Assembly (NCBI RefSeq): GCF_002252635.1 | Contig: NZ_NQKX01000004.1 | Location: 62,001-126,000 of the forward strand | From: Synechococcus sp. MW101C3 | Lineage (GTDB): Bacteria > Cyanobacteriota > Cyanobacteriia > PCC-6307 > Cyanobiaceae | Length of the DNA stretch: 64,000 nt | Reading direction: 5' to 3' | Shown here: in pieces, positions 36,235 through 38,718 of the stretch | Layout of the letters: each line of letters starts with the position of its first letter | Numbering within the stretch: the stretch's first letter is position 1 | Notes under the pieces: generated by a model | Databases searched by the model: none | Told to the model about the DNA's origin: nothing | The model's input: the letters and a program-made list of their open reading frames with translations, nothing else | Position numbers and translations under genes: made by a program

Positions 36235-37779
36235 TCACCAGCGCTCGATCAGCTGCCGCACCATCGCCGGCAGCGCCTGGCGCCGCAGAGCCGTCTGACG
36301 GCCTTCCAGCAGCAGCGTGATGCGCTCGGCCTTGCTGGCGATGATCCCGTCCACGAGCTGATCGGCCACGCCCAGCTGCAGCCAATGGCTGGTGAGCGGT
36401 CCGGCCATGCCGATGCGGTGGCAGCGGTCCTCCGCCTGCTCCGCGTCCCCCGGCGTCCAGGGGCGCTCCAACAGCACCACATGGGCGGCCCTGTGCAGCG
36501 TGAAGCCCAAGCCACCAGCCCCGAAAGTGGCCACCAGGCAGGGCGTCGCCCCGGCCTGGAAGCGATCCACCTGTGCCTGGCGCTCCAACGCCTTCAGCCG
36601 ACCCGTGAGCAGCGCGCCACCCAGGCGGGCCTGCAGCTGTTCGGCACTGGCCACGAAGGCGGTGAACAGCACCACGGCCTCCCCCTGGCGCAGAAGGGCC
36701 TCCACCAGCTGGATGGCGGCAGGCAGCTTGTGCTGGGCACCGATCCGGCGCAGGGCGGTGAGCATGGCGAGGGGCTCGGCGTCGCGGCGCACCTCGCCCC
36801 TGGCGGCCCGGCAGCGGTAGTCGTCCAGCCTGGCGGCCAGTTCCTGCTCGAACGCCATCGCCTGGGACTCCCCGAGCGCCACCGGGAGCATGCGGCGGCA
36901 CTTTGGAGGCAGATCGAGGCAATCCTGCTTGCGGCGGTGGAGCACGAGCGGCCTTGTCAGCCGCTGGAGTTCATCGAGCCGCTCGGCTCCGACTGCCTGC
37001 CACTGGCGCCGTCCACCCCGTTCGCTCCAGTGCCCCTGACAGAACCGCTCCTCGTAGGCATGCCGGTCTTGGGCGAGGGGATGGCCGATTGCCGCCAGCA
37101 GCGGAAACAGCTGAACCGGGCGGCCGTTCTTCATCGGGGTGCCGGTGAGCAACCAGATCGCCCGCAGCCGCGGATGTCTGGCCAGCCGCAGCAGGGCCTG
37201 GGTGCGCGCCGCCTGGATGTTCTGGGCGAAATGGGCCTCATCCACGATCAACACCGTGGCGGCCGGCGGCAACGAGCGCGGCAGGGCCGCCCAGCTGATC
37301 AGCTCCAGATCAAGGGCGAGGGAGAGGCCCTCCTGCCGCCAGTGGGGATGGAGGGCGGTTGGAGCCACCACGGCGATGCGGCAATCCGCCGCCCGGACCA
37401 TGGCCCGGGCCGCCACCAACGCCGTGAGCGTCTTGCCCAGGCCCATGGCGTGGGCCAGCAGGGCACCGCGACGAGCCAGCAGCCAACGCGCCGCCAGCCG
37501 CTGATGGGCGAACAGACGGCGCCCATCGGCCAGAGGCTGATCCAGGGCGGCCTGGGCCACGAGGGTGCGGTGAGGCGGCAGGGGCGGCAGGGGCTGCTCC
37601 AGCCATTCCATCCACTGCGCCAGCTCCGGATCGATCCGAAAGCGCTGGCCAAGCAGCTGGCGCAAGGCCAGCGAGGCCTCGAGCGGAAAGGCCCAGCAAC
37701 CACGCCGCGCCTGCCACTGGCCCCGGGGCCGCACGGCGCGCAACTGGGCCTGAGTGACGGGATCAAAGGGGGAGACCAC
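36235..37779 (-). CDS. SNF2-family helicase with HARP-like N-terminus
   Basis: A 514-residue DEAH-type SNF2 ATPase. Motifs: Walker A in HAMGLGKTLTA (about residue 112), DEAH (IVDEAHFAQN), TGTPMKN, and in the second lobe FGAGGLGFTLHRA and QAEDRCHRIGM. The first ~60 residues (VSPFDPVTQAQLRAVRPRGQWQARRGCWAFPLE) resemble the HARP domain of SMARCAL1-type annealing helicases, which rewind DNA at forks. The start is GTG at 37779; the frame is open upstream (LRLGPSGQIE) but has no ATG, GTG or TTG. The stop at 36235 faces the lipoprotein gene. An HNH nuclease gene starts 261 bases away on the other strand. Confidence 0.85.
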   Translation of the reverse strand: MVSPFDPVTQAQLRAVRPRGQWQARRGCWAFPLEASLALRQLLGQRFRIDPELAQWMEWLEQPLPPLPPHRTLVAQAALDQPLADGRRLFAHQRLAARWLLARRGALLAHAMGLGKTLTALVAARAMVRAADCRIAVVAPTALHPHWRQEGLSLALDLELISWAALPRSLPPAATVLIVDEAHFAQNIQAARTQALLRLARHPRLRAIWLLTGTPMKNGRPVQLFPLLAAIGHPLAQDRHAYEERFCQGHWSERGGRRQWQAVGAERLDELQRLTRPLVLHRRKQDCLDLPPKCRRMLPVALGESQAMAFEQELAARLDDYRCRAARGEVRRDAEPLAMLTALRRIGAQHKLPAAIQLVEALLRQGEAVVLFTAFVASAEQLQARLGGALLTGRLKALERQAQVDRFQAGATPCLVATFGAGGLGFTLHRAAHVVLLERPWTPGDAEQAEDRCHRIGMAGPLTSHWLQLGVADQLVDGIIASKAERITLLLEGRQTALRRQALPAMVRQLIERW

Positions 37780-38040
37780 CTCGATCTGTCCCGATGGGCC
37801 GAGACGCAGCAGACAGGTGGCGGCGGAAACCGTGCGGGGTCCGAGGGAGCGGCTGACCGAGGGAGAGCTGCTGACGGCGGGAGAGCGGCTGGCGACGGGG
37901 GCGCTGCAAGCGGGCCGAAGGCAAATTTAGTCGAATCGGGGCGACGGGCAACCGTTGGCGCTGAAGGCTGAAAAAAGCAATCCTCGACACATTGACATCT
38001 GTTGAGGTGGGGGCAAACTCTCCGCAACTGAGCCATCAGG

Positions 38041-38457
38041 ATGCACGCGAGAGATGCGGTGTTCCTTGAAGATCTCTGCCCCAAACTTCGCGTCAGGCGC
38101 TGGCGTCAATCTCTCCACAAACACACTGACAATCGTTGTATTTACTGCGGCAATCGCTCCGAATCCATTGATCATCTGATGCCCCGCTGCCGTGGTGGCC
38201 TGAGCGTGACAGCAAACTGCGTGCCGGCCTGCCTGGCCTGCAACGGCCACAAAAGCGATGCCGATCCCTTCGATTGGTACCGGCGTCAGCGCTTCTACGA
38301 CCCGCGGCGGGCCATGGCGATCCGTGCCTGGATGGATGGGGATCTACGCCTGGCGGTGCGGCTGCTCCAGTGGGCCAACCCGGAGCCCAGCTCCAGCCCG
38401 CCGCTCCATGCCGGAGCCACTCCAGCGGGGACGGACTGGGCCTTTCAGGCGGCCTGA
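38041..38457 (+). CDS. HNH endonuclease family protein
   Basis: A 138-residue protein with the HNH fold: CIYC (zinc knuckle), SIDHLMPRCRGG with the metal-binding His, TANCVPACLACN with the Asn and second CxxC, then GHKSDADPFDWYRRQRFYDPRRAMAIRAWMDGD. This arrangement is shared by the stand-alone HNH genes common in picocyanobacteria, whose targets are unknown. There is no intein, intron or methylase beside it. The upstream ~100 bases are less GC-rich than the surroundings. ATG 38041. Confidence 0.88.
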   Translation: MHARDAVFLEDLCPKLRVRRWRQSLHKHTDNRCIYCGNRSESIDHLMPRCRGGLSVTANCVPACLACNGHKSDADPFDWYRRQRFYDPRRAMAIRAWMDGDLRLAVRLLQWANPEPSSSPPLHAGATPAGTDWAFQAA

Positions 38458-38472
38458 GCGCGCCTCGCCGGT

Positions 38473-38718
38473 TCACCAGACCCGGCAGGCCACCGGGCCG
38501 TTGTGGCGGACGCAGATCCCCTCTTCCCGCTCCGGGGCTTCCGGGGCGAGCAAGGAGACGACCAGCACCAGGCTGAGGGCGAGCACGGCCGGAGCCCAGG
38601 CCAGAGCGGTGTTCCAGGTGGCCGCGCGGGCAGAGGGAAGCGCGGCGGGGCGCTGACTCCGGGCCACGAAGGGGCCGGCGGGCACCCTGCGGGAGCTAGA
38701 GAGAGAGGAGGCGGTCAT
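38473..38718 (-). CDS. Small single-pass membrane protein, function unknown
   Basis: An 81-residue protein with one membrane helix (about 36-55, NTALAWAPAVLALSLVLVV) and a short C-terminal tail ending EGICVRHNGPVACRVW, whose two cysteines may form a disulfide. The ending ICxxHNGxxACRV looks like a conserved cyanobacterial motif. ATG 38718 was chosen. The gene converges on the HNH gene and diverges from the SDR gene with 34 bases between starts. Confidence 0.6.
   Translation of the reverse strand: MTASSLSSSRRVPAGPFVARSQRPAALPSARAATWNTALAWAPAVLALSLVLVVSLLAPEAPEREEGICVRHNGPVACRVW

Follow-up and report, generated by a model that had tools for sequence, protein, structure and literature searches.

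The genome of Synechococcus sp. MW101C3 contains a gene for a SNF2-family helicase next to a gene for an HNH endonuclease, and this raises the question of whether the two proteins form a functional module or are independent genes that have remained neighbors. The stretch of DNA analyzed, hereafter the window, comprises 64,000 nucleotides (contig NZ_NQKX01000004.1, positions 62,001 to 126,000). Open reading frames and Pfam matches bear out the preliminary description of a SNF2 helicase with an HNH nuclease 261 bases away on the opposite strand; the genes are divergent, and both are real (Table 1). Neither the SNF2 subfamily nor the HNH superfamily is new, and we recognized no paper describing the pair in the literature searched. 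The reading we favor, with a probability of roughly 60%, is that a SNF2 translocase of the mobile-element type adjoins a core HNH gene that has a promoter to itself, and that the two are independent genes held together by synteny.

Table 1. Features of the helicase-HNH locus, in window positions
Feature	Coordinates	Strand	Details
SNF2-family helicase/translocase gene	36235..37779	minus	514 aa from GTG at 37779; Pfam matches, family alignments, AlphaFold2
Helicase N-terminal small domain	37588..37812	minus	Strand-strand-helix-strand-strand-helix-helix; starts ~11 codons upstream of GTG; conserved residues and predicted elements E2-4 to H62-72
Gap between helicase GTG and HNH ATG	37780..38040	none	Helicase-proximal part probably coding
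Probable HNH promoter	37992..38019	plus	TTGACA, 16-base spacer, CAAACT
HNH endonuclease gene	38041..38457	plus	138 aa; PF01844 match, invariant alignment columns

The flanks consist of housekeeping genes, and there is no defense island. According to Pfam, one side carries GMP synthase, CbiD, an AbrB-like membrane protein, DUF6554, and a weak TPR match, and the other side an epimerase-like protein (labeled SDR), PdxA, a biotinyl protein (accB), and EF-P, followed further out, past EF-P, by an AIRS-domain protein, glyceraldehyde-3-phosphate dehydrogenase, and MurB. The flank gene labels thiL, ppi, and murC are presumed assignments of ours.

The helicase matched SNF2-rel_dom PF00176 with an E value of 4.6e-22 and 78.9 bits (gathering cut-off 24.9), which makes it a SNF2 family ATPase, and Helicase_C PF00271 with 7.2e-14 and 52.4 bits (gathering cut-off 23.5). 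It also matched phrog_62 (DNA helicase; E 1.7e-67). The window helicase was aligned with 50 of 80 helicases of other loci. Its AlphaFold2 model was confident (mean pLDDT 89.5), and the solved structures closest to it in a fold search were SNF2 remodelers, among them INO80, SRCAP, Mot1, and CSB (Z 26 to 28), with ZorD also among the matches listed. Ahead of the motor, the model confidently predicted the small unit of Table 1 at residues 2 to 72. This unit may resemble the HARP domain. By sequence, the HARP label that the N terminus had initially been given is rejected: no match to HARP PF07443 was listed for the window helicase or across the whole genome, and all 51 members of the helicase family were unmatched, in searches whose HMMER filters conceal most matches weaker than ~0.1, so that a very remote HARP relation could escape them. 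A profile of the N-terminal region did not find SMARCAL1 among PDB sequences at an E of ≤10, and the matches listed in the fold searches, which were taken up by the motor, included no HARP or SMARCAL1 chain, an absence that carries no weight. The helicase coding frame does not end at the only GTG but stays open beyond it, and residues are conserved ~12 codons further out (minus strand, 37779 to 37850). Since the open frame of this extension contains no ATG, GTG, or TTG in four relatives (L045, L056, L065, and L086), the true helicase start is perhaps non-canonical.

The HNH protein matched PF01844 over residues 33 to 73 with an E value of 2.5e-6 and 28 bits (gathering cut-off 21.4) and is thus a member of the HNH superfamily; the 3.03-Mb genome contains four PF01844 matches. 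Alignments of 25 and 36 sequences (the window protein with 24 of 69 references and with 35 of 73 HNH proteins, respectively) revealed as invariant two CxxC pairs, D44-H45, N59, N68, and K71, which include the presumed catalytic residues, as well as the tail WYRxQxFYDPRR. Modeling of the structure gave a poor result (mean pLDDT of 59.9). Eight PDB sequences matched at an E of ≤0.01, namely, the HNH endonuclease 4h9d and larger HNH proteins; ZRANB3 was absent from these eight. The NCBIfam model Cas9d was matched with an E value of 2e-12; this match was confined to the HNH region, and the scores lay far below the NCBIfam cut-offs (25.6 versus 175 bits for IscB and 46.6 versus 375 bits for Cas9d). 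Related HNH genes were present in 243 phage records, all with <60% identity and <80% coverage, and the best ten phage rows showed 37 to 42% identity over 58 to 73%. Second HNH copies, 56 to 61% identical, were observed elsewhere in genomes of genus g18 (G017, G067, G135, G219, and others; loci L089 to L091) and often carried one in-frame TAA or TAG, and a further copy, with 70% identity, is present at 1.35 Mb in G151. In Prochlorococcus, PMM1528 is reported to be a UV-responsive HNH gene (PMC2921402); judged by gene number versus position, it is probably the other core HNH gene and was left out of account here.

How constant the arrangement is was assessed in two collections. Adjacency was counted on fetched loci only, and in all 53 of the 80 fetched loci that contained both genes, these were at most 700 bases apart and divergent in the gene map. 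The other collection retained 80 of 300 relatives; 75 of the 80 loci belonged to the family, identified by record titles as the picocyanobacteria (Synechococcus, Cyanobium, Vulcanococcus, and relatives), and the HNH orthologue lay divergently beside the helicase in 74 of them, whereas the 75th, L204, had 29 HNH residues at a contig end. Contig ends cut the HNH gene in both L051 and L204, L136 duplicates L143, and L089 to L091 represent the extra g18 copies. The neighborhood analysis that the preliminary description had called for thus placed the pair together in picocyanobacterial loci beyond chance, yet other gene pairs proved equally constant. At the same distance of ≤700 bases, adjacency was found for duf6554-helicase in 53/53 loci, accB-efp in 68/68, pdxA-accB in 68/69, SDR-pdxA in 68/70, HNH-SDR in 64/66, and guaA-cbiD in 54/55. 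Because the whole block from guaA to murB is equally syntenic, adjacency of helicase and HNH within the family is weak evidence for a module. The SDR-pdxA exceptions occurred in g9, where helicase and HNH are absent. Both HNH-SDR exceptions were in genus g19, where a gene has been inserted between HNH and SDR and the helicase-HNH pair is still intact, which we counted against a reading based on synteny only. In one g19 locus (L111, 7363 to 8643), the intervening gene encodes 426 aa and reads like an antiporter. Fused versions, another check that had been proposed, were not found: no open reading frame in 174 loci matched both profiles. A locus titled as a Bifidobacterium breve metagenome-assembled genome (L166) carries the efp-to-abrB part of the picocyanobacterial block and comes from a mislabeled or contaminated bin.

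The distribution of the two genes separates them more clearly than their position. Among the matches listed for 251 family genomes (strong helicase, E ≤1e-100; strong HNH, E <1e-40), the helicase was present in 165 and HNH in 219; 164 genomes had both, 55 HNH only, 31 neither, and a single genome, G183, which is 55% complete, the helicase only. Helicase matches between 1e-37 and 4e-55 (G106, G119, and G218, all <90% complete) were scored as absent. When the 168 genomes with a completeness of ≥90% were considered (including G193, 6% contaminated), again among the matches listed, 123 had both genes, 36 HNH only, 9 neither, and none the helicase only. HNH, present in 159 of the 168, is therefore a near-universal picocyanobacterial gene, and the nine genomes with neither gene were seven of g9, G025, and G049. 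Absence of HNH from close relatives, which would have spoken against the initial idea, was not seen, as both same-genus genomes carry it.

In a rapid phylogeny based on five flanking proteins (LG+G4, SH-aLRT only; 79 of 81 rows, g9 being represented by the two pdxA-bearing loci out of eight fetched), the twelve HNH-bearing, helicase-free rows grouped in a single clade, which points to one probable loss of the helicase; a contig-edge row stood apart. In helicase-free genomes, duf6554 now adjoins HNH, and the small genomes of this kind appear to be Prochlorococcus-like. Family rows with neither gene were found in two places, g9 plus g49 on the one hand and G025 on the other, with the other contig-edge row apart. 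Both contig-edge loci, L035 (G001) and L102 (G040), are uninformative on the helicase or the pair, and their tree labels (HNH-only and none) are artifacts. The tpr and SDR flanks of G025 are intact and 375 bases apart, and neither gene was found between them. With so few independent events, co-loss is indistinguishable from a single two-gene deletion, and early absence from loss.

A strongly conserved element precedes the HNH gene. TTGAC was present in 117 of 118 distinct HNH upstream regions, in 109 of them at -49 from the ATG, and the sole exception, L054, reads TTGCC; in the second, CAAACT-like hexamer, the second base was A and the sixth T, each with a frequency of 1.00 after rounding. The element was retained in all 12 distinct upstream regions of helicase-free genomes, and for this reason the HNH gene most likely relies on a promoter of its own that does not depend on the helicase. 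A stock consensus scan called no sigma-70 promoter at 37700 to 38500, the conserved element included. An AACCGAG-type conserved sequence precedes the HNH start in the window (38020 to 38040) and in relatives. A start-codon hairpin at this site (CCGAG...CTCGG) was unconvincing, with 287 of 415 paired cells versus a mean of 275 and a maximum of 289 after shuffling (132 of 133 upstream regions, those with ATG starts, 83 distinct).

Outside the family, the two genes part company. Among 388 genomes of the class, HNH was found at an E of <1e-40 in 64, all of family f1, with only 4e-18 to 9e-13 in six others, and the helicase at an E of ≤1e-30 in 40, namely, 39 of f1 plus G422, in which it lies on a contig of plasmid size that matches pSYN7502.01 of Synechococcus sp. 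PCC 7502. Helicase homologues are encoded on five cyanobacterial plasmids (PCC 7502, two Microcystis, and two Nostoc; 38 to 45% identity) and in five further non-family cyanobacterial loci (Laspinema, two Nostoc, Amazonocrinis, and Desmonostoc). The HNH orthologue was present in none of these ten plasmid or chromosomal loci within ≤6 kb, or less at contig ends; the search used a narrow model and a motif pattern, and the absence concerns the orthologue only. The expectation that homologues of the helicase have an HNH neighbor thus holds in picocyanobacteria and fails beyond them. On the plasmid of Nostoc sp. PCC 7524, an annotated HNH endonuclease starts ~5.9 kb from the helicase and is cut by the end of the fetched stretch. 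Four plasmid helicases have 671 to 801 aa, with ~130 or more extra N-terminal residues that the window helicase lacks. In L143 to L146, the N-terminal region contains a motif like DGxGFNxxDxxxGHWL and has no good Pfam match, and the helicase of the Microcystis NIES-2481 plasmid is split by a transposase gene.

Relatives of the helicase are also encoded in at least 577 viral stretches. In 50 of 80 kept viral loci that were examined, PF01844 HNH genes occurred in 9 records, 2 of them (G597 and G598) within 1 kb of the helicase. Our own generic HNH model found none in the 80 viral loci, a null result that is unreliable because Pfam detected HNH in the fetched stretches of G597 and G598. VRR_NUC was rejected as a partner of these relatives, having matched in 1 of 50 records with a score below the cut-off. 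The sole viral contig carrying the HNH orthologue (L242; IMG/VR, 4,160 bases) contains abrB and duf6554 as well and has no helicase; given its host neighbors abrB and duf6554, we take it to be a host fragment, probably misfiled as virus. The SNF2 family to which the chromosomal window helicase belongs was otherwise found on plasmids of cyanobacteria, in a few further cyanobacteria, and in viral contigs.

Considering these data, the two-gene module proposed in the preliminary description stands in part. Constant co-location and the lack of helicase-only genomes at ≥90% completeness agree with it, whereas the 36 of 168 genomes with HNH alone and the equal synteny of neighboring genes do not. In its strongest form, the pair would be a split ZRANB3-like module acting in trans, in which a recombination intermediate or stalled fork is remodeled by the SNF2 motor and nicked by HNH, which the motor loads or activates. 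We regard this as possible but unlikely. The joint absence of both genes in g9, g49, and G025 is in line with it, and the HNH nuclease activity of human ZRANB3 is reported to require ATP hydrolysis by the helicase core (PMC5481773). Against it stand the HNH genes that keep their promoter element without the helicase, the missing orthologue in the ten other cyanobacterial helicase loci, the lack of fusions, the unmatched HARP profile, and the absence of ZRANB3 from the PDB matches of HNH. HNH survives without the helicase, so its strict dependence on the helicase motor is unlikely; the retained promoter and the equally conserved neighboring pairs weaken the module idea further. A related scenario, which we judge to be distinctly unlikely, is that a phage- or plasmid-derived SNF2 fork remodeler was captured beside a core HNH that it came to use, a split counterpart of ZRANB3 whose loss is tolerated and whose presence requires HNH. 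The absence of helicase-only genomes next to 123 carriers of both genes (among the matches listed) and the joint absence in G025 with intact flanks speak against the synteny reading and fit a partnership.

It is improbable that the two are separate repair genes under a shared divergent control region, responding to the same stress with no physical partnership. From the aligned helicase start, the distance to the HNH start is 116 to 128 bases in 40 of 74 loci, which would allow a shared control region, and the HNH element is strongly conserved; but the starts lie further apart in the remaining 34 loci, the consensus scan was negative, and no helicase promoter was identified. A LexA-type site before HNH was rejected, since no LexA-like GTAC-N4-6-GTAC site was present in the HNH upstream regions scanned. 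We consider a two-gene antiphage defense system very improbable. PADLOC gave partial matches for the helicase (DpdE, 2.7e-29; ZorD, 1.2e-25) and HNH (PDC-M01B, 1.3e-8; PtuB, 1.5e-4), but these were limited to the motor and HNH regions, NCBIfam equivalog cut-offs were far off (ZorD, 43.7 versus 1500 bits; DrmD, 37.5 versus 950 bits), and a conserved housekeeping block with a near-universal HNH gene does not fit such a system. The defense genes listed for an Antarctic Synechococcus-like species include HNH-family endonucleases and a SNF2 helicase of the drmD type (PMC9716671), which may or may not correspond to the window genes. Pure chance adjacency of two common gene types, which the preliminary description had allowed for and which the four PF01844 matches in the genome might suggest, is refuted within the family by the recurrence of the same arrangement in fetched loci on uncut contigs.

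Under the favored reading of independent neighbors, HNH would nick or cut DNA at a particular structure or modification, using its putative metal-binding site, during repair or recombination, and the helicase would translocate on double-stranded DNA and remodel branched DNA. The pair was probably fixed divergently inside the syntenic housekeeping block early in the family, the helicase presumably having come from mobile elements. Any coupling would be one-way, in that the helicase may use HNH and HNH has no need of the helicase. A fork-repair role of the pair would be plausible. If the proteins cooperate, they offer a bacterial two-gene system for direct tests of the way in which an HNH nuclease is driven by a SNF2 motor at forks; the cells are photosynthetic and abundant, and genomes that naturally lack the helicase could serve as controls. 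If they do not, the locus is a clear case of perfect family-wide adjacency explained by synteny, and it draws attention to an HNH nuclease gene that even small streamlined genomes retain.

Among known systems, the SNF2 helicases of phages and plasmids resemble the window helicase in sequence, as judged by the identities with the five plasmid copies and the phrog_62 match; the four intact, aligned plasmid copies differ from it by their extra N-terminal region and by having no adjoining HNH orthologue. Stand-alone HNH endonucleases of cyanophages and the HNH domain of IscB/Cas9d share the aligned HNH core with the window protein, which, unlike these, is chromosomal and near-universal, has a conserved tail, and scores far under the IscB and Cas9d cut-offs. 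In the annealing helicase SMARCAL1/HARP, a small alpha-beta domain directly precedes the SNF2 motor, as the model predicts for the window helicase, although the family of the latter is unmatched by PF07443. A close parallel to the pair as a whole is ZRANB3 (AH2), a eukaryotic structure-specific endonuclease in which a SNF2 motor and an HNH nuclease are likewise encoded together. ZRANB3 is a single polypeptide, whereas the window pair consists of two divergent genes, and, unlike in ZRANB3, the HNH of the window type also occurs without the motor.
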